A stretch of 36,227 bases of DNA. Source: a virus. Location of the stretch: positions 1 to 36,227 of the IMG/VR virus record IMGVR_UViG_3300044641_002125; one strand, 5' to 3'. Both the position numbers and the translations under genes were made by a program. Below, one piece after another: positions 11,604 to 23,772 of this stretch. Position 1 is the stretch's first letter, and every line of letters starts with the position of its first letter. The notes under the pieces are model-generated. The model was not told the DNA's origin, made no database searches, and worked only from the letters and a program-made list of their open reading frames with translations.

Positions 11604-12225
11604 AAATTATTCAAAGAACATAGATGGAATTGTCTATCAGGTAGATAAACAACACATCGATTATGATAAAGATTATGTGAATACTCGCTATGTTAAGTAT
11701 GGAGAACTTCCAACTTATATGGGATATTTGCGTTTAGGTAATATTATTGGATCTCTTAATCGAGTTCCAAAAAGTATTCTTGATGTTGGTTATGGTGATG
11801 GATCTTTTTTGAAAGTCTGTAATAATATTGTTCCCGAATGTTATGGGTATGATATTTCAACCTATCCTATTCCAAATGGATGTACTCAAGTTGAAAGTAT
11901 TACAGAAAATTTTTATGATGTAATTACTTTCTTTGATTCTCTCGAACACTTTGAAGACATTGATTTTGTTCGTGATTTGAAGTGTAGTGCTGTGTGCATT
12001 TCTGTTCCTCATTGCCACTATAAAAACGATGAGTGGTTTGAGAATTGGAAACATAGGAGACCAAATGAACACCTTTGGCACTTTGATAAAAAATCATTGG
12101 TTACATTTATGAACAGAATGGGATATGAAATTATATCTTCTAGCAATGTAGAAGATACTATTCGTAAAAATAAGGAAGAAGAATCTAACATTTTGACTTG
12201 TGTTTTTAAAAAAGTAAAAGTATGA
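11596..12225 (+). CDS. SAM-dependent methyltransferase (class I, Methyltransf_23-like), 209 aa
   Basis: Motif I is clear, SILDVGYGDGSFLKVC at about residues 62-77, followed by the acidic CYGYDIS and then DVITFFDSLEHFEDI, the motif IV/post-IV region. HRRPNEHLWHFDKKSL resembles ubiquinone/menaquinone-type and sugar methyltransferases (EHLWHF). It likely modifies a sugar in the phage-directed glycan. It overlaps the preceding gene by 8 bp and the following by 4 bp. Confidence 0.8.
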   Translation: MLENYSKNIDGIVYQVDKQHIDYDKDYVNTRYVKYGELPTYMGYLRLGNIIGSLNRVPKSILDVGYGDGSFLKVCNNIVPECYGYDISTYPIPNGCTQVESITENFYDVITFFDSLEHFEDIDFVRDLKCSAVCISVPHCHYKNDEWFENWKHRRPNEHLWHFDKKSLVTFMNRMGYEIISSSNVEDTIRKNKEEESNILTCVFKKVKV

Positions 12226-13232
12226 AAGCTGTTGTATTAGAAAAAATTGATGCACCTCTTGCGATTAGAGATGTTGAATTGACTGAACTAAAGGTGGGTC
12301 AGGTTCTTGTTAAGATACTTGTAAGTGGTTTGTGTGGCGCACAACTCCATGAAATTCGTGGTCATAAGGGAAATGCAAAGTTTCTTCCTCATCTAATGGG
12401 TCATGAAGGATGTGGCATTGTTGAAGAAGTTGGACCTGGTGTAACCACAGTTAAAGTTGGTGATAAGGTTGTGATGCATTGGAGACCTGGAACTGGAATT
12501 GAAGCACCATTTCCATCATATGTTCTCGATGGAAAATCGATGAGTAGTGGTAAAGTAACTACTTTAAGTGAGTATTCTATTGTATCCGAAAATAGACTAA
12601 CTACTGTCCCTCAAGATACTCCAGAAGATTTGTGTGCAATTCTCGGTTGTGCTCTGACGACTGCAATGGGAATTATTGATAATGAGATTGATCTTAAGTT
12701 TGGTGAAAGCGTTGCTGTTGTTGGATGTGGTGGTGTTGGATTGAACTTGATTCAAGCAGCAGCACTTAAGAGTGCGTGCCCAATCTATGCAATTGATAAT
12801 AATGTGACAAAGAGAGATCTTTGCTTTACTGCTGGAGCATCTCTCTTTACTAACTCTATCAACAATTTGGAGGAAAGTGTAGATGTAATTATTGATACTA
12901 CAGGTATTCCTGAAGTTATTAGTGAGTGTGCATCAAAACTTTCTGGTAAAGGGCGTATGGTTCTAGTTGGACAACCAGCTCCTGGACGTGGTATTGAGAT
13001 TATGAATGCACTTAACCTTTTTAATGGTATGGGTCAAAGTATTAAAGCAACTCAAGGTGGAAAGACCAATCCTGCAGAAGATATCCCTCGTTATGTTCGT
13101 ATGCATAAAGAAGGTTTGTTAGATATCAAGCAATTTGTTACACATCGTTTCAAACTAGATGAAGTAAATGATGCATTCGACTTGCTTAAGTCAGGAAATG
13201 CTGGTAGAATTATTGTCGAAATAGGAGTATAA
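12222..13232 (+). CDS. Zinc-type medium-chain alcohol dehydrogenase (MDR), 336 aa
   Basis: N-terminal GroES-like domain with catalytic zinc ligands C38 (GLCGAQLHE) and H61-E62 (MGHEGCG). The Rossmann loop VAVVGCGGVGLNLIQ lies near residue 165. The four-Cys structural zinc lobe of classical ADHs is absent; this region instead reads MHWRPGTGIEAPFP. It oxidises or reduces an alcohol or sugar with NAD(P). It is followed after 3 bp by a thiamine-diphosphate enzyme, so the two may act in sequence on one substrate. Which substrate cannot be told. Confidence 0.88.
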   Translation: MKAVVLEKIDAPLAIRDVELTELKVGQVLVKILVSGLCGAQLHEIRGHKGNAKFLPHLMGHEGCGIVEEVGPGVTTVKVGDKVVMHWRPGTGIEAPFPSYVLDGKSMSSGKVTTLSEYSIVSENRLTTVPQDTPEDLCAILGCALTTAMGIIDNEIDLKFGESVAVVGCGGVGLNLIQAAALKSACPIYAIDNNVTKRDLCFTAGASLFTNSINNLEESVDVIIDTTGIPEVISECASKLSGKGRMVLVGQPAPGRGIEIMNALNLFNGMGQSIKATQGGKTNPAEDIPRYVRMHKEGLLDIKQFVTHRFKLDEVNDAFDLLKSGNAGRIIVEIGV

Positions 13233-13235
13233 TAG

Positions 13236-14444
13236 ATGAGAGGAACTGATTGGACGCCTGAAGGTCTTCGTTCTTTTGTAGATAAGATCGCAGAACATCA
13301 CGATGCTGGTCGTTTGCCTTTTGCCCTCCACCTTCCTGGTGGTAATGAAGAGCAATTGATTGATATTTTTTCGAACATTAATGAGGGGGATTACGTTTTA
13401 TCCACTCATAGAAATATGTACCATGCCTTGTTGCACGGTCTTCCTCCAGAAGAAGTTGAGAATAAAATTCTTAATGGTCGAAGTATGTTTATGTTTGATC
13501 GTGAACGTAACTTCTACGTCTCTGCTATTATTGGTGGACCTGTTGCAATTGCTGTAGGCATTGCTTGGGCATTGAAGCGTAAGGGATCAACTCAAAAGGT
13601 TTGGTGCTTCCTTGGTGATGGAACTGAAGATACTGGGCACTTTGCAGAAGCAGTGCGTTATGTGGATGGATTCGATCTTCCCTGCACCTTTGTGATAGAA
13701 GATGACAGAATGGCAGTAGAAGCACCAAAAGAACGTCGCTGGGGAACCGATAAAGACCTTGATTGGCCTTCTTGCGTTGTTCGCTACCATTACACTAAGA
13801 CTCGCCCTCACATTCGTACTGGTAACTTTGCCGACTTGAAGGTGATGAAGGAAATTATGCGAACTGATGAGGAGTATTTCCCTCTTCTTCCTAAGCGCGA
13901 GTATCCAAAACCAGTTGATTATCATCCCCTTGATATGAAGTTCAAGGATGCAGTAACTCAGGGTATGACTGAACTTGGTGAAGATGGTGCAATCTTTATT
14001 GGATATAGTCTCATTCCTGGTGATGCAATGGGAACTCTCAAGAATGTTCCTGATGACCAAAAGATTGAAACTCCCGTTGCAGAAAATCTAATGGTTGGTC
14101 TTGCAATTGGTATGTCATTTGAAGGTTTTAAACCAGTTGTTTATTTTGAACGGCATGACTTTATGTTGGTTGCTGCCGATGCCATTGGCAATCATGTAGA
14201 TAAAATTGAAAGAATCTCACACGGAGAATTTAAAGTTCCTATCATTCTAAAAACTGTTGTTGATGATGGTGGACTGTTCTATTCTGGACCTACTCATTCT
14301 CAGGACTTTACAAAAGTATTCCAAGAGTTGGTAGATTTCCCTGTTCTTGACCCTCAAACTCCAGAGGAAGCTTTGGATATGTATAGGTATGCCAAAGATA
14401 GTGATGGTCCTGTGATGATTGTAGAGCACAAAAAGTTCCACTGA
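13236..14444 (+). CDS. Compact thiamine-diphosphate enzyme: E1-alpha plus E1-beta domains fused, 402 aa
   Basis: Residues 1-205 are a 2-oxoacid dehydrogenase E1-alpha-like PP domain with the ThDP motif GDG (127-129), 26 residues, then DD (156-157) where NN is usual. Residues 220-402 are an E1-beta-like PYR domain with ETPVAENLMVGLA; Glu283 is the expected cofactor-activating Glu. The third (transketolase C) domain is absent, and no E2 or E3 gene is near. It therefore looks like a free-standing ThDP lyase or ketolase-type enzyme acting on sugars rather than a dehydrogenase complex. Directly downstream of the alcohol dehydrogenase. Confidence 0.82.
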   Translation: MRGTDWTPEGLRSFVDKIAEHHDAGRLPFALHLPGGNEEQLIDIFSNINEGDYVLSTHRNMYHALLHGLPPEEVENKILNGRSMFMFDRERNFYVSAIIGGPVAIAVGIAWALKRKGSTQKVWCFLGDGTEDTGHFAEAVRYVDGFDLPCTFVIEDDRMAVEAPKERRWGTDKDLDWPSCVVRYHYTKTRPHIRTGNFADLKVMKEIMRTDEEYFPLLPKREYPKPVDYHPLDMKFKDAVTQGMTELGEDGAIFIGYSLIPGDAMGTLKNVPDDQKIETPVAENLMVGLAIGMSFEGFKPVVYFERHDFMLVAADAIGNHVDKIERISHGEFKVPIILKTVVDDGGLFYSGPTHSQDFTKVFQELVDFPVLDPQTPEEALDMYRYAKDSDGPVMIVEHKKFH

Positions 14445-15256
14445 TGAAAACATATGTGTCCCTAGGAATCGGGGATTTATTTTTTCTCGATTCCATTCTT
14501 ACAAAAGATGAGAAAGAAAGCATAACTGAAATCTATTGGGCATGTAGATTTGGATATGTGATGAAAGATTTGTTGGAGAATAACCCATCATATCCAAATC
14601 TTATCTCTCAATATGTTATTGATGATGAAACTGGAAAGGCAGCAATGGCAACGCTTGATCCTATTGCTGTCCCTTTTTGGCATTTTAGACCTGACTTTGA
14701 ACGTAACTTTAAAGTTGGGTTAAAACTATTTGGTATCGAGAGTGATTGGGATAATCAAAATCTTCAGATAGTTGATGCTGTAAGTATGTTTCTGGATGAC
14801 ACAAGACCATTCCAAGAATCGTCTTTTATCAAACACGCTGATAGAATTGATGACAACTACATCGTCTTTCATTACCCAACATCAACTAGACCAAGAAGTG
14901 ACATCGCGCATATTACTGATGATGATGTTGAGTTTGTGAATCAGTTATCAAGAGAAACTGGTTATTGTGTCAAGATTATCTCCGATCATAAAGTAGATCT
15001 TGCAATTGAGAATCAAGAGCAGTTTATTAATGAACCCATTATTAAAGTAAAAGACTTGGTTGCCAATTGTAATTATTATGCTGGTTGCGATTCTTTCTGT
15101 AGTATTCTTGCGGCAAAAGCACTTCCAAAAGAAAACTTGTTTATTAAAACATCACCAAACTTTACTGGATGGAATAATTGGTTATTTCGAGCATTCCTTC
15201 CACATTCTCCCGAAGAAGTAAAGCAATTTTATAAACCATACATTGGAAGACCATGA
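14444..15256 (+). CDS. GT9-like glycosyltransferase, 270 aa
   Basis: The N-terminus SLGIGDLFFLDSILT matches the opening of the protein at 10896. The C-terminal half holds CNYYAGCDSFCSILAAKAL, resembling the GT9 heptosyltransferase donor-site loop (G-x-D-S-x-x-x-x-x-A-A-A). Lacks membrane segments. A role in transferring heptose or another sugar onto the glycan is inferred from fold and neighbours. Its start overlaps the upstream stop by 1 bp, and it overlaps the kinase gene by 4 bp. Confidence 0.55.
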   Translation: MKTYVSLGIGDLFFLDSILTKDEKESITEIYWACRFGYVMKDLLENNPSYPNLISQYVIDDETGKAAMATLDPIAVPFWHFRPDFERNFKVGLKLFGIESDWDNQNLQIVDAVSMFLDDTRPFQESSFIKHADRIDDNYIVFHYPTSTRPRSDIAHITDDDVEFVNQLSRETGYCVKIISDHKVDLAIENQEQFINEPIIKVKDLVANCNYYAGCDSFCSILAAKALPKENLFIKTSPNFTGWNNWLFRAFLPHSPEEVKQFYKPYIGRP

Positions 15257-15984
15257 GTAGTATACTAGTTATTGGTGAGACTTGTAGAGATGTATTTGTC
15301 TATTGTGATTCCAATAGACTTTGCCCAGAAGCACCTGTTCCCGTTCTGAATATTGTAGACCAGAGGGAAAACCCTGGGATGGCTGGTAATGTTCGTAGAA
15401 ATATTGAGAGTCTTTCTGGAAAGGTAATTAACATAACAACCAATTCTAATTGGTATGAGATTGTAAAAACAAGATATGTGCATCGAGAGAGTAATCATAT
15501 GTTCTTTCGAGTAGATACAACACAACCAACTCCTAGATTAAATGTTAAAGATCTTGATTTGGATTATGATTTAGTCGTTATTTCAGATTATAATAAAGGG
15601 TTTCTTCTTGAAGATGACATTTCATATATTTGTTCTAATCATAGTAATGTGTTTATAGATACAAAGAAAATTCTTGGTGATTGGGTGAAGGAAGCAAGGT
15701 TTATTAAAATCAATGATTATGAGTATCGTAATTCTGAAAAGTATTTGACAAGTGAGATAAAGGAAAAGATCATCCATACTATGGGGGGTCTTGGATGTGA
15801 GTATAAAGGAAAAAGATACCCAACTAAAAAAGTAGAAGTTAAAGATTTGTCTGGTGCTGGTGATACTTTCATGGCAGCACTAGTAGTAAAATTTATAGAA
15901 ACAGACAATATTGATAAGAGTATTGTATATGCAAATGAATGTGCATCTAAAGTAGTAACTCAAAAAGGAGTAGCAGTCCTATGA
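15253..15984 (+). CDS. Heptose-7-phosphate kinase, stand-alone HldE N-terminal domain (PfkB family), 243 aa
   Basis: N-terminal ILVIGETCRDVFVYCD, a PEAPVPV patch typical of HldE kinases, NPGMAGNV (substrate loop) and the C-terminal PfkB signature DLSGAGDTFMAALVV with its catalytic Asp. In the ADP-heptose pathway this step makes heptose 1,7-bisphosphate. In most bacteria the domain is fused to the adenylyltransferase; here that part is a separate gene at 16760. It is shorter than usual (about 310 aa), with small lid deletions. It overlaps both neighbours by 4 bp. Confidence 0.85.
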   Translation: MSSILVIGETCRDVFVYCDSNRLCPEAPVPVLNIVDQRENPGMAGNVRRNIESLSGKVINITTNSNWYEIVKTRYVHRESNHMFFRVDTTQPTPRLNVKDLDLDYDLVVISDYNKGFLLEDDISYICSNHSNVFIDTKKILGDWVKEARFIKINDYEYRNSEKYLTSEIKEKIIHTMGGLGCEYKGKRYPTKKVEVKDLSGAGDTFMAALVVKFIETDNIDKSIVYANECASKVVTQKGVAVL

Positions 15985-16763
15985 TTATTCTGACTGGTTA
16001 CAATGGATTTATTGGAAATGCTTTTTTGGATAAACTTGATAAAGAGAACCTTTATCGGGTTGGTATTGGTGGAGCATTTAATTTTTTAAATGAATACAAT
16101 GACTGGGATAAAGTGCAACTAATACTTCATCAGGGTGCTATCTCAAGCACAGTTGAAACTGACATAAACAAGATACACAAATATAATGTTGATTTCACGC
16201 TTAGATTATTTGAGAAAGCCATTGAATATAAAATTCCAGTTAAGTATGCATCCTCAGCATCTGTTTATGGAAATCTTCAAGGCATCTTCAATCCATTGAA
16301 CTACTATGCTATTTCAAAACTACAAATAGATTATTGGGTTCAGGATCATATTGATGAATTCTCTTTGATACAAGGTTTTAGATATTTTAATGTCTATGGT
16401 AATGGTGAAGACAGTAAGGGAGACCAAGCAAGTCCAGTAAGTAAATTTACAAAGCAAATAAAAGAGACTGGAAAACTTAATTTGTTTGAAGGATCGGATA
16501 AGTTTTTGAGAGATTTTATTTGTGTTAATGACGTTGTTGATGTTGTCCTTAACAATGAGAAAGGATCTGGAATCTATGATCTAGGAACTAGCAATCCTGT
16601 GAGTTTCCAACATGTTGCAGAATGTGTTGCAAAGAAGTATAATGGTGATATTAACTATATTCCTTTCCCCGACCATTTGGTTGGTAAGTATCAAGATTAC
16701 ACTAAAGCAAAATGTGAATGGGGGGATTATGAGTTTATGACCGTAGAGGACTACCTTAAATGA
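15981..16763 (+). CDS. hldD: ADP-L-glycero-D-manno-heptose 6-epimerase (HldD), 260 aa
   Basis: An SDR with nucleotide loop TGYNGFIG. ILHQGAISSTVETD corresponds to the HldD hallmark HxGAxSSTTExD. YAISKLQID gives the catalytic Tyr-x-x-x-Lys, and FRYFNVYG, LFEGSDKFLRDFICVNDV and YIPFPDHLVGKYQDYT are all HldD-typical. It inverts C6 of ADP-heptose, giving the L-glycero donor for LPS core heptosyltransferases. Slightly short for the family (about 310). Embedded between the kinase and adenylyltransferase genes with 4-bp overlaps. Confidence 0.92.
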   Translation: MIILTGYNGFIGNAFLDKLDKENLYRVGIGGAFNFLNEYNDWDKVQLILHQGAISSTVETDINKIHKYNVDFTLRLFEKAIEYKIPVKYASSASVYGNLQGIFNPLNYYAISKLQIDYWVQDHIDEFSLIQGFRYFNVYGNGEDSKGDQASPVSKFTKQIKETGKLNLFEGSDKFLRDFICVNDVVDVVLNNEKGSGIYDLGTSNPVSFQHVAECVAKKYNGDINYIPFPDHLVGKYQDYTKAKCEWGDYEFMTVEDYLK

Positions 16764-17164
16764 TTACAGTATGGACAAATGGATGCTTTGATATATTGCA
16801 TCCAGGACATATGGAATTATTCAAGATTGCCAAATCTCTTGGTAATCGTTTGATTGTTGGTATCGATGAGGACCAAAAAGTTCGTAATGATAAAGGACCT
16901 AATCGTCCAGTAAATTCATTGTCTTTTCGTAAGGCAATGTTGGAATCAAATAAACATATTGATATTGTAATTCCATTTGGTAGTCGTCAAGAACTTGAGA
17001 ATCTAATTCAACTTTATTCTCCAGACATTCTCCTTGTAGGTGGTGACTGGAGAAATGGTGATGTTGTTGGTAGACAATTTGCTAAGGAAGTAAGATTCTT
17101 AGATAGAGTTGGTGGATATTCTACTACTGATATTATAAGGAGAATTCATGAAATACGTTGTTGA
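16760..17164 (+). CDS. Heptose-1-phosphate adenylyltransferase, stand-alone HldE C-terminal domain, 134 aa
   Basis: A nucleotidyltransferase of the cytidylyltransferase-like fold: TNGCFDILHPGHMELF contains the HxGH nucleotide motif. VGIDEDQKVRNDKGPNRPVN and DILLVGGDW are typical of the HldE C-domain, and ST near the C-terminus (GYSTTDIIRRI) is the usual ISTT-like motif. It transfers AMP to heptose 1-phosphate. Together with 15253 it reconstitutes a split HldE. It overlaps the next gene by 17 bp. Confidence 0.9.
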   Translation: MITVWTNGCFDILHPGHMELFKIAKSLGNRLIVGIDEDQKVRNDKGPNRPVNSLSFRKAMLESNKHIDIVIPFGSRQELENLIQLYSPDILLVGGDWRNGDVVGRQFAKEVRFLDRVGGYSTTDIIRRIHEIRC

Positions 17165-17480
17165 CATTGATGGGACAATTTGCGATAAACCAAGTAATAT
17201 GCATCACGATGGCGATTACTCTATTAGTGTTCCAATCCCAGGTAGAATTGAAAAAATAAATAAACTATACGAAGAGGGACATACTATCGTATATCTCACT
17301 GCTAGAGGTATGGGAAGGCACGGTGATTCTAGGATGTTAGCACATAAAGAATTTTATAATCTAACTTATAATCAACTCATAAATTGGGGTTGCAAGTTTC
17401 ACGAACTTCACATGGGTAAACCCTCTGGCGACTTTTACATTGACGATAAGGGTATCAATTCTAATGAGTTCTTCAATTAA
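17148..17480 (+). CDS. Small HAD-superfamily phosphatase, 110 aa
   Basis: It starts YVVDIDGTICDKPSN, giving the HAD nucleophile pair D6-x-D8, then IVYLTARG (motif II Thr) and DFYIDDKG (acidic motif IV). It lacks a cap domain. Similar small HAD proteins sit in capsule and LPS clusters. Placed directly behind the ADP-heptose genes it could be the missing GmhB-type phosphatase (heptose 1,7-bisphosphate to 1-phosphate), although it does not look like classical GmhB. Overlaps both neighbours by 17 bp. Confidence 0.75.
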   Translation: MKYVVDIDGTICDKPSNMHHDGDYSISVPIPGRIEKINKLYEEGHTIVYLTARGMGRHGDSRMLAHKEFYNLTYNQLINWGCKFHELHMGKPSGDFYIDDKGINSNEFFN

Positions 17481-17817
17481 ATTTGTCCCTAAGGGATGGG
17501 GATTTGAAAAATGGATTGTAAACAATGAGCAATACTGTGGTAAACTTTTATACTTCGCACAGGGAAGAAAATGCTCTTGGCATTATCATAAATTAAAAGA
17601 TGAAACTTTTTACATTCAATCTGGATGCATAAAGTTGTTATATTCTGATGATGATAATAGAGAACTTGCTAATATTATTTTCTTAAAGAAGGGAGATAAT
17701 TTTCACATTTATCCTGGTCTTCGTCATCAGATGATTGCTCTAGAGGATACAGAATTATTTGAATTTTCTACTCAGCACTTTGATGAGGATAGTTACAGAA
17801 TTATTAAAGGAGATTGA
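17464..17817 (+). CDS. Cupin-fold protein (sugar isomerase/epimerase type), 117 aa
   Basis: The cupin metal site is visible: SWHYHKLKDETFYIQSG (His-x-His...Glu) and, later, YPGLRHQMIALED (His). The opening GWGFEKWIVNNEQYC resembles cupins joined to mannose-6-phosphate isomerases and other sugar-phosphate isomerases. The true start is ATG 17464, inside the end of the HAD gene, with a weak ribosome-binding site. A sugar-phosphate isomerase is a plausible role. No gmhA-like isomerase is present, so this protein might fill a related step, but that is speculation. Confidence 0.7.
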   Translation: MSSSIKFVPKGWGFEKWIVNNEQYCGKLLYFAQGRKCSWHYHKLKDETFYIQSGCIKLLYSDDDNRELANIIFLKKGDNFHIYPGLRHQMIALEDTELFEFSTQHFDEDSYRIIKGD

Positions 17818-21172: not shown

Positions 21173-22666
21173 ATGAAACTCAAACAACTGATGCTTGCAC
21201 CTGTTGCTCTGGGAATGGTTGCCCCTGTTGCTGCGAATGCCGCAGACCTTAATATGGCAGCAGTCAATCAATATTCCTCTGAGCAGGTTACTAGCGTCAA
21301 CCAACTTTCTGATGTGCAACCAACCGATTGGGCATATCAGGCACTTAGCAACCTCGTAGAGCGTTATGGTTGCGTTGCTGGTTATGCCAACGGCACTTAT
21401 GGTGGCAGTAAGGCAATGACCCGCTATGAGGCAGCAGCACTTCTGAATGCTTGCCTGGATCGTGTAACTGAAAATACTGATGAACTCAAGCGTCTTGCTG
21501 ATGAGTTCCGTAATGAACTGACTGTTATTCAAGGTTCTGTTGCTAAACTGGAAACTCAGGTTGGACAACTTGAAGCAACCCAATTCTCAACCACTACTAA
21601 ACTGAAAGGTGAAGCATCTTTCGTTCTTGGTGGTGTTGATAATGCTTGGACCCCTGGTTCTACTGCAAGCACCAATGTTGGTAATACTGCTTTTAATTAC
21701 GATCTTCGTATCAATCTTGATACTTCTTTCACTGGTAAAGACCTGCTCCGCACTCGTCTGCGTTCTGGCAACTTCTCTTCACAACCCTTTGGTTCTTCTT
21801 CTTCCCTGTTCAAACTGGACAAGGCAGAGAGTACTGCTGATGCTGTGAAACTTGACCGTCTGTACTACAGCTTCCCTGGACTTGCTAAGGGTGTGACTCT
21901 GACTGCTGGTGCTCTGGTTCGTAACACTGAGATGACTTGGATTCCTTCTGCTTATAAGTCGGATGTTCTGGACTTCTTCCAACTTGCTGGTGCCCCTGGT
22001 GTCTATAACAAGGCAACTGGTTCTGGTTTCGGTGCTCAGTGGGTCCAAGGTAAAAAGGGTTTTGTTGCTGGTCTGAACTATGTTGCTCAAGGTGGATCTG
22101 ATTCCACTAAAGGTGAGTTTAACGAAAAGGGTTCTCTGAACACTCTTGCTCAGATTGGTTATCGTGCTCCTAATTATGGCGCTGCATTCGGTTATCGTTA
22201 TGGTACTGAAGGCACCCGTGTTCGCACTTTCAACGGTATTCTTGGTTCTTCTGGTGCTCTTGCTCCTGGTCAAACCTCTAATGGTTATGCTCTGAGTGCT
22301 TACTGGCAACCTTCCAAGTCTGGCATCATTCCTTCTGTGAGTGGTGGTTACGGTTGGAACACTGTAAGCTTGAATGCTGAAGGTCAAGCAACTCCTAATG
22401 GTGCTACCGATTCGCAAACTTGGTATGCTGGTCTCCAGTGGTCTGATGTGTTTGCTAAGGGCAACTCTGCTGGCTTCGCTATCGGTCAACCTGGTAATGC
22501 AGAAGGTCTTGAGAAAGACGCAACGATGTGGGAAGTATTCTATAAGTATCGTGTAAGCGATAATATTACAGTTACTCCTGCAGTGTTCTATGTGTCAAAC
22601 AATCAGGCACTTGCAGATACCTCCTCTAACTATGGTGGGGTAGTTCAAACTACTTTCCGTTTCTGA
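21173..22666 (+). CDS. Cyanobacterial-type SLH/OprB outer-membrane porin, 497 aa
   Basis: Signal peptide (MKLKQLMLAPVALGMVAPVAANA, mature from about residue 24), then an SLH-like domain from about residue 50 (DWAYQALSNLVERYG, then MTRYEAAALLNACLD) that anchors to peptidoglycan. A coiled-coil linker (ELKRLADEFRNELTVIQ) follows, then a beta-barrel ending VVQTTFRF with the terminal Phe of outer-membrane proteins. This is the architecture of the Som/iron-uptake porins of cyanobacteria. Codons such as CTG and CGT are more frequent than in neighbours, as for highly expressed or host-derived genes. It would alter host outer-membrane permeability during infection. Confidence 0.92.
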   Translation: MKLKQLMLAPVALGMVAPVAANAADLNMAAVNQYSSEQVTSVNQLSDVQPTDWAYQALSNLVERYGCVAGYANGTYGGSKAMTRYEAAALLNACLDRVTENTDELKRLADEFRNELTVIQGSVAKLETQVGQLEATQFSTTTKLKGEASFVLGGVDNAWTPGSTASTNVGNTAFNYDLRINLDTSFTGKDLLRTRLRSGNFSSQPFGSSSSLFKLDKAESTADAVKLDRLYYSFPGLAKGVTLTAGALVRNTEMTWIPSAYKSDVLDFFQLAGAPGVYNKATGSGFGAQWVQGKKGFVAGLNYVAQGGSDSTKGEFNEKGSLNTLAQIGYRAPNYGAAFGYRYGTEGTRVRTFNGILGSSGALAPGQTSNGYALSAYWQPSKSGIIPSVSGGYGWNTVSLNAEGQATPNGATDSQTWYAGLQWSDVFAKGNSAGFAIGQPGNAEGLEKDATMWEVFYKYRVSDNITVTPAVFYVSNNQALADTSSNYGGVVQTTFRF

Positions 22667-22809: not shown

Positions 22810-23772
22810 ATGAAACTCAAAAACTTTATTGCTATTGGTCTAGTTGCTGCTCCTGCTGCTGCTCTTGCTGGACCTGCTCTGAATGGTGCTGGTGCTACCT
22901 TCCCTGCACCGATTTATCAACGATGGTTCCAAGATTATGCACGAACTTCTGGGAATAGGGTTAATTATCAGTCCGTTGGTTCTGGCGCTGGTGTTCGTCA
23001 ATTTATTGCGGGCACAGTTGACTTCGGAGCAAGTGACGAACCAATCAAACCAGCAGAAGCAGCAAAGGTGAAGCGTGGTGTCGTTCAAATCCCTATGGTT
23101 GGTGGGACGATTGCTGTTGCTTATAACAAGCCTGGATGCAAACTGAAACTCACTCAGAAACAAACTGTTGATATTTTTTCTGGTCGCATTAAGAACTGGA
23201 ACCAAGTTGGATGTACTGCTGGTCCTATGACTGTGGTTCATCGTTCTGATGGTTCTGGAACCACTTATGCATTCACTAACTCTCTTGATGCCTTTGGTGG
23301 TTGGAAACCTGGTGTTGGTAAATCTGTAAATTGGCCTGTTGGTGTTGGTGCTAAGGGTAACGAGGGCGTCTCTGGAACTATTAAAAACACTCCTGGTGGC
23401 ATTGGTTATGTGAATACTGGATTTGTTCGTGCCAACAAACTCCAAGCTGCTGTACTTCAAAACAAGGCAGGTAAGTTCGTTGGACCTTCTGCTGTGACTG
23501 GATCTGCTGCTCTGAATGGTATTACTCTAGATGCAAACCTTGCTGGTGAGAACCCCAATCCTGCTGGTGTAAATGCATACCCCATTTCTACCCTGACTTG
23601 GATCCTTGCATATAAAAAAGGTAATGGCGCAAAGACGAATGATATCCGTGCCGCTATCAATTATGCTCTAAGCACTAAGGCACAATCTATTGCTGATGAC
23701 CTTGGATATGTTCCTCTTTCGGGAAGTGTTCTCAATAAAGCACGTCTTGTTGTTGGTCGTATCGGTCAATAA
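22810..23772 (+). CDS. pstS: PstS phosphate-binding periplasmic protein, 320 aa
   Basis: Signal peptide (MKLKNFIAIGLVAAPAAALA), then GAGATFPAPIYQRWFQDY, the PstS opening, SVGSGAGVRQFIAG and VDFGASDEP (phosphate-binding loop), VVHRSDGSGTTYAF (second phosphate loop) and TPGGIGYV. It delivers phosphate to the host PstCAB transporter, which is not encoded here. Cyanophage pstS genes have been shown to be induced in phosphate-starved hosts. Flanked by terminators on both sides, so it is a single-gene unit with the Pho-box promoter. Confidence 0.95.
   Translation: MKLKNFIAIGLVAAPAAALAGPALNGAGATFPAPIYQRWFQDYARTSGNRVNYQSVGSGAGVRQFIAGTVDFGASDEPIKPAEAAKVKRGVVQIPMVGGTIAVAYNKPGCKLKLTQKQTVDIFSGRIKNWNQVGCTAGPMTVVHRSDGSGTTYAFTNSLDAFGGWKPGVGKSVNWPVGVGAKGNEGVSGTIKNTPGGIGYVNTGFVRANKLQAAVLQNKAGKFVGPSAVTGSAALNGITLDANLAGENPNPAGVNAYPISTLTWILAYKKGNGAKTNDIRAAINYALSTKAQSIADDLGYVPLSGSVLNKARLVVGRIGQ

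Follow-up and report, generated by a model that had tools for sequence, protein, structure and literature searches.

A predicted ADP-heptose module with a cupin in the place of GmhA on a T4-like cyanomyovirus fragment

INTRODUCTION

Gram-negative bacteria make ADP-L-glycero-D-manno-heptose with GmhA, HldE (or HldA and HldC), GmhB, and HldD. The window analyzed here is the whole of a 36,227-base fragment of a virus record (IMG/VR IMGVR_UViG_3300044641_002125, positions 1 to 36,227). It contains five genes with the same five-activity logic, and the kinase, adenylyltransferase, and epimerase are homologous to those of the Gram-negative pathway. The phage module differs in having a cupin for GmhA, a mini-HAD protein, unrelated by profile, for GmhB, and a kinase that is about 70 residues shorter. 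We conclude that the five genes probably form a module that makes ADP-L-glycero-beta-D-manno-heptose from sedoheptulose 7-phosphate, with the cupin as a non-orthologous replacement of GmhA. Sedoheptulose 7-phosphate is an intermediate of the Calvin and pentose phosphate cycles of the host.

Among the closest described systems is the cyanophage lipopolysaccharide (LPS) cluster T4-GC 304 to 308, which contains exactly the five genes of the window. In P-SSM2, S-SM2, and S-SSM7, T4-GC 304 is the transferase, 305 the kinase, 306 the HAD protein, 307 the cupin, and 308 HldD. Sullivan et al. 2010 placed T4-GC 304, 305, 307, and 308 among co-occurring LPS genes of three phages and asked whether such genes are functional or stuffer DNA (PMC3037559). 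Ahlgren et al. 2020 described heptose genes in SynMITS9220M01 (PMC7378029), which differs from the window in having a real GmhA and HddA-type kinases. Neither paper assigned an isomerase function to the cupin.

Two other groups of proteins are comparable. The D-lyxose/D-mannose isomerases (2y0o and 7nzo) and the Thermococcus phosphomannose isomerase (7zvy) are like the phage cupin in fold and metal-ligand pattern. They convert a ketose to a manno- or lyxo-aldose, which is the type of reaction proposed for the phage cupin. The phage cupin differs from them in its low identity (19 to 26%), its lack of a curated family match, and its heptose synthesis context. The EcbF/BcbF capsule phosphatases (TIGR01689) are, like the phage HAD protein, minimal HAD proteins of about 110 to 130 aa from surface polysaccharide loci. 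The phage protein differs in being linked to, and at times fused with, an HldC-type transferase.

RESULTS

Sequence and predicted fold of the cupin

The cupin is labeled cysteine dioxygenase in RefSeq and PHROGs (SSM2_211, phrog_7851). We searched 50 members of the family against Pfam and NCBIfam, and none of them matched a cysteine dioxygenase family. The members matched Cupin_2; matches to the D-lyxose isomerase family were seen in 33 of the 50, and matches to a mannose-6-phosphate isomerase domain in 11 of the 50. Residues H40, H42, K45, E47, H88, and R112 are invariant across these 50 viral and cellular relatives. Four of them (H40, H42, E47, and H88) make up the metal-ligand pattern HxH, E, H. 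The cupin profile also has the motif N-x4-YC-x-K ... C-x2-H-x-H ... K-x-E in common with the Bacillus subtilis D-lyxose isomerase 2y0o.

The AlphaFold2 (AF2) model of the cupin had a predicted local distance difference test score (pLDDT) of 96.7. Among the top PDB matches of the model are CapF, D-lyxose isomerases from archaea and Bacillus (24 to 26% identity), oxalate decarboxylase, and 7zvy. The last is a single-domain cupin, with a target-normalized template modeling (TM) score of 0.82 to the cupin model. The fold by itself is not diagnostic; two of the relatives catalyze a ketose to manno- or lyxo-aldose reaction that would be analogous to the one proposed. A search of the open-access literature, with subscription papers and preprints outside its scope, returned no paper linking a cupin to GmhA or to sedoheptulose 7-phosphate isomerization.

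Linkage of the cupin in viruses

IMG/VR was searched with the cupin alone, independently of the kinase, and 585 relatives were retrieved. The best 80, which by construction are those nearest the query, were taken, and the 74 loci in which the sequence extended at least 4.5 kb upstream were counted. The kinase, transferase, and HAD genes were near the cupin in 74 of the 74 loci, and GmhA was present in none of them. A close HldD was found in 26 and was missing from 48, and it is an optional part. If the isomerase is the cupin, the four-gene core would supply the four activities that lead to ADP-D-glycero-D-manno-heptose.

Every one of the 35 phage records in which the cupin occurs belongs to a cyanophage or a marine single-cell virus. 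Bellamy and SynMITS9220M01 have other genes around the cupin, an HddA-type kinase (279 and 287 bits, respectively) on one side and an HddC-like transferase on the other. HddA has a GHMP fold and HldA a ribokinase fold, and the two proteins are not related. They have a common substrate, D-glycero-D-manno-heptose 7-phosphate, which is the product of the isomerase.

Cupin and GmhA in cellular genomes

With the cupin as query, 63 loci were found in cellular genomes. Three arrangements were seen in Woesearchaeota: a cupin fusion to HldA (L222), a single protein with the cupin between GmhB and HldC domains (L229), and a cupin next to HldA and HldC (L227). A gene of the GT9 heptosyltransferase family is near the first two of these loci. 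The archaeal phylum (DPANN, Woesearchaeota) was sampled with 236 genomes, 64 of which contained HldA; the metagenome-assembled genomes (MAGs) in the cellular counts are incomplete. Of the 64 HldA genomes, 14 had the cupin, compared with 3 of the 172 genomes without HldA (p 1e-6). Among the HldA genomes, GmhA was present in 2 of 14 that had the cupin and in 38 of 50 that did not (Fisher p 4.6e-5).

The two genes occupy the same position in archaeal operons. The order GmhA-HldD-HldA-[GmhB+HldC] was found at L241, L242, L243, and L302, and the order cupin-HldD-HldA-[GmhB+HldC] at L234, L235, and L238, and also at L237 with the last two genes unfused. At L234, HldA scored 382 bits, and the GmhB and HldC domains were confirmed with NCBIfam. 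HldA is fused to GmhA at L245 and L304 and to the cupin at L222, L236, L248, L249, and L250. A tree of 37 HldA proteins contained six switches between cupin and GmhA, at least four of them forced by strongly supported branches. The tree has sister pairs, such as L237 (cupin) and L244 (GmhA), that differ only in the gene of the isomerase slot. These repeated switches answer the possible criticism that shared descent explains the counts. The archaeal heptose operons show a pattern of repeated non-orthologous displacement of GmhA by the cupin.

A full-length match to HldA was found in 24 of 30 cellular genomes with the cupin, and a clear GmhA in only 6 of these 24. For comparison, GmhA was present in 91 of the 110 HldA genomes of one bacterial phylum among the matches listed. 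The cupin family is probably a second, unrelated sedoheptulose-7-phosphate isomerase in marine cyanophages, DPANN archaea, and some bacteria. The phage pathway would then be self-sufficient and fed from a Calvin cycle intermediate of the host.

Complete ADP-heptose operons are common in the archaeal phylum (L241 to L250 and L291 to L310). Their fusions vary and include GmhB+HldC, HldA+HldC, HldA+GmhA, and HldA+cupin.

GmhA in related phages and hosts

The first-pass annotation reported that gmhA was missing and reasoned that isomerization must come from elsewhere. The absence was borne out: SIS-type gmhA was not found in the window, and tblastn with two GmhA queries found none in the complete phages S-SM2, S-SSM7, P-SSM2, P-TIM68, S-CAM1, and S-CAM3. 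The reasoning was not, with the overlapping cupin downstream as the likely isomerase.

We sampled 151 Cyanobiaceae genomes as hosts. An HldA-type kinase was present in 22 of them, mostly as a fused HldE of about 510 aa and with a GmhA, and 129 had no full-length one. A GmhA-like protein was present in 35 genomes. Only one genome, a Prochlorococcus single cell, had a close relative of the cupin. This cell (AG-409-P03; L290, G006:C3) encodes a window-type cupin and a short phage-like kinase 12 kb away and does not have GmhA. These genes may represent a captured phage module or a genomic island.

The LPS of marine Synechococcus WH8102 and CC9311 is reported to have no heptose (PMC4515613). The first-pass annotation had stated this for marine Synechococcus in general, which agrees with these two strains and the 129 genomes and fits less well with the 22 that have a kinase. 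Judged from their genes, most sampled hosts would be unable to make ADP-heptose without the phage, and a minority could. A host that already makes ADP-heptose, which had been named as the finding that would count against the module's proposed role, may thus exist in that minority and not among most sampled hosts.

These counts bear on the alternative that the phage pathway is incomplete. The cupin would then do another step, such as a later epimerization or heptose tailoring, and GmhA would come from the host or a distant phage gene. GmhA does occur in some Cyanobiaceae genomes, a few phages hold it together with the cupin, and 3,5-epimerases and further sugar enzymes also belong to the cupins. 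A tailoring enzyme would be expected alongside GmhA, not in its place, whereas the archaeal cupin takes both the operon position and the fusion slot of GmhA, and most such genomes have no GmhA. Nor was GmhA found in most sampled hosts or in the complete related phages. We consider an incomplete pathway unlikely.

Kinase, epimerase, and adenylyltransferase

The best family of the kinase was TIGR02198 (110.7 bits, 7.6e-32; curated equivalog cutoff, 345). Its AF2 model had a pLDDT of 94.8, and the best PDB fold match was Burkholderia HldA 4e84 (E 2.3e-18). The R-x2-PEAPVPV and GAGD motifs are kept in 42 phage relatives. HldD matched TIGR02197 with 202 bits (1.1e-59; cutoff, 274.6). Its catalytic-type Tyr and Lys residues, Y109 and K113 of the YxxxK motif and K146, are invariant among eight phage homologues. 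The transferase matched TIGR02199 with 117.9 bits (3e-34; cutoff, 181.5), the next family was glycerol-3-phosphate cytidylyltransferase with 70.2 bits, and the HPGH motif is present. All of the module proteins missed the curated hidden Markov model (HMM) cutoffs because they are short and divergent (the kinase has 243 aa versus 315).

The enzymes may instead be merely descended from the heptose pathway and make a different nucleotide sugar, from another ketose phosphate or with CDP in place of ADP. The missed cutoffs, the short kinase, an HAD protein nearer to the EcbF/BcbF type of capsule phosphatase, and the 48 of 74 loci without a close HldD would all fit such a sugar, and an unusual one could involve the adjoining transketolase-like E1 and Zn-dehydrogenase. 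HldA is both the best family and the best fold of the kinase, however, and the PEAPVPV substrate motif is kept. The characteristic residues of HldD are retained, the HldC score of the transferase is far above its score as a glycerol-phosphate cytidylyltransferase, and loci without HldD would only have ADP-D-glycero-D-manno-heptose as their product. A different sugar is therefore improbable in our assessment, and we continue with ADP-heptose as the predicted product.

Mini-HAD phosphatase

The HAD protein matched TIGR01689 (EcbF/BcbF type) weakly (1.1e-8, 35 bits versus a cutoff of 162) and is otherwise a generic HAD-IIIA protein. Residues DxDGT, T51, K91, and DD are conserved. The closest solved relative by sequence is 9iqw, a "capsule biosynthesis protein." HAD+transferase fusions were found at L010 (SynMITS9220M01), L051, L078, L097, L115, L118, L126, L133, and L139. 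The linkage and the fusions to the transferase suggest that the HAD protein plausibly fills the GmhB step, as had been proposed in the first-pass annotation.

RefSeq and PHROGs name this protein phosphoheptose isomerase (e.g., NC_015279 SSM2_210, phrog_1238). The family bearing this label occurs in 385 phage records, and many Escherichia and Klebsiella phages are among them. We rejected an isomerase function for the HAD protein; it had no SIS or GmhA match, and its HAD residues are conserved. This label and the cysteine dioxygenase label of the cupin look like propagated misannotation. The published phosphoheptose isomerase of SynMITS9220M01 was considered as a case of the same mislabeling, which was rejected. 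It is a true, though divergent, GmhA (TIGR00441, 2.8e-12).

A fused HAD+HldC-type transferase stands beside a true GmhA at L010 (SynMITS9220M01, 12001 to 12753), L115, L126, L133, and L139, as a second heptose-like module. These phages may make two different heptoses.

Layout and integrity of the module

The five overlapping genes are a single operon-like module (Table 1). The four heptose genes of the first-pass annotation were recovered at their place and in their order as intact open reading frames with the matches given above. The module had been ended at 17480, which is too early, since the cupin gene overlaps the HAD gene and belongs to the module. The cupin starts at an ATG at 17464, with an alternative TTG start at 17440. 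The junctions had all been given as 4-bp overlaps. This is correct for kinase/hldD and hldD/transferase, and the transferase/HAD (17148 to 17164) and HAD/cupin overlaps are 17 bp. The kinase and transferase are separate genes, as described; to call this a split HldE overstated an ordinary arrangement, the solved Burkholderia HldA 4e84 being a stand-alone kinase.

TABLE 1 Predicted genes of the heptose module and features around it in the 36,227-base window
Feature	Position	Strand	Evidence
HldA-type D-glycero-D-manno-heptose-7-phosphate kinase, shortened, 243 aa	15253..15984	+	TIGR02198, fold, motifs
HldD-type ADP-heptose 6-epimerase, 260 aa	15981..16763	+	TIGR02197, residues
HldC-type heptose-1-phosphate adenylyltransferase, 134 aa	16760..17164	+	TIGR02199, HPGH motif
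Mini-HAD phosphatase, 110 aa, probably acts in place of GmhB	17148..17480	+	TIGR01689 (weak), HAD residues, linkage/fusion
Single-domain cupin, 117 aa, probable sedoheptulose-7-phosphate isomerase instead of GmhA	17464..17817	+	Fold, motifs, linkage
Zn-dependent alcohol dehydrogenase, then 402-aa thiamine pyrophosphate (TPP) E1 protein	12222..14444		
Conserved 270-aa family	14444..15256		
OprB/SLH porin-like outer membrane protein	21173..22666		
pstS	22810..23772		

Between the window and S-SM2, nonsynonymous divergence (pN) was 0.10 to 0.20 and synonymous divergence (pS) was 0.66 to 0.83 for the kinase, transferase, HldD, HAD, and cupin genes. Synonymous sites of HldD, HAD, and cupin are close to saturation in this comparison. 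The module genes are under purifying selection, which is strong for the kinase, the transferase, and the neighbors. The module is not a chance assembly, because the set recurs in many cyanophages and is under purifying selection.

Sullivan et al. 2010 raised the explanation that LPS-like genes of this kind are nonfunctional stuffer DNA (PMC3037559). The hypervariable location near tRNAs in large-genome phages would suit it. Synonymous change near saturation with few amino acid changes speaks against it, as do the invariant catalytic-type residues and the recurrence of the same set across many distantly related phages. We give this explanation very little credence.

Distribution in isolated phages

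All five genes are present in P-SSM2, S-SM2, S-SSM7, P-TIM68, S-CAM1, S-CAM3, and Sf-FS3. Sf-CH5 and S-T4 have the complete set except for a recognized HldD. The gene set is not new: at least nine isolated cyanomyoviruses carry it, with HldD unrecognized in two. In large-genome phages, the module is part of a hypervariable region close to tRNAs. In S-CAM1, S-CAM3, P-SSM2, and S-SSM7, it lies among tail fiber or neck genes, and virion decoration is therefore possible.

Window virus and neighboring genes

The window contains 12 tRNAs, pstS, and glycosyltransferases. By gene content and similarity, its virus groups with the T4-like cyanomyoviruses, and the closest isolate is Synechococcus phage S-SM2. 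The family and fold matches uphold the first-pass assignment of an ADP-heptose-type module to a phage, here a T4-like cyanophage. The glycosyltransferases of the region belong to the GT10, GT11, and GT25 families. The OprB/SLH porin-like gene lies between the glycosyltransferases and pstS.

The gene directly 5' of the kinase overlaps it by 4 bp and encodes a conserved family with 26 IMG/VR relatives (38 to 100% identity). Sixteen members were scanned, and no Pfam or PDB match was found. Its GxGD start prompted a comparison with GT9 heptosyltransferases, in which hhalign against archaeal GT9 gave a probability of 0.2%. Directly 5' of this gene are the Zn-dependent alcohol dehydrogenase and the E1 protein. 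The latter is a fusion of TPP E1 alpha-like and beta-like halves (transketolase-like E1). S-SM2 and P-TIM68 also have this pair next to their heptose kinase, and it is under purifying selection. It may make an unusual sugar or acyl group.

DISCUSSION

In the proposed pathway, the cupin would convert sedoheptulose 7-phosphate to D-glycero-D-manno-heptose 7-phosphate as a metal-dependent ketose to manno-aldose isomerase. This would be the one-carbon-longer analogue of the conversion of fructose 6-phosphate to mannose 6-phosphate. The kinase would phosphorylate C1, the mini-HAD protein would take off the 7-phosphate, and the transferase would add AMP to give ADP-D-glycero-D-manno-heptose. HldD would epimerize C6 and yield the L-glycero form. 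The glycosyltransferases of the region would put sugars on a surface glycan, and this glycan is most likely where the product would be used. We observe which genes are present, that they are intact and under selection, their conserved catalytic-type residues, their linkage and fusions, and the repeated replacement of GmhA by the cupin, and we infer all of the enzyme activities, including the HAD step.

Several observations weigh against this pathway. The cupin fold is common to many enzymes, and oxalate decarboxylase and CapF score equally well. The kinase is about 70 residues short. The HAD protein is not GmhB by sequence; it had no match to the GmhB heptose bisphosphatase or GmhA profiles. 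About half of the viral kinase relatives have no transferase, HAD, or cupin gene nearby. The cupin and GmhA are present together at viral L010, L115, L126, L133, and L139 and in archaeal G184, G235, and G346. Neither is present in 12 of the 64 HldA archaeal genomes; therefore, there are either MAG gaps or further isomerases. In the Candidatus Binatus phylum, most HldA genomes without GmhA also have no cupin, and cupins are very few there. Most cupins at the loci from Binataceae, Deltaproteobacteria, and Planctomycetota do not adjoin HldA.

With the cupin as the predicted isomerase, an apparently broken phage pathway becomes complete, and a conserved family labeled cysteine dioxygenase gains a predicted function. 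The fold of this family would be new among enzymes that catalyze the first step of heptose synthesis. Genomes scored as ADP-heptose negative for want of gmhA may be able to make ADP-heptose. Infected picocyanobacteria, which are reported to be heptose free, may acquire heptose.

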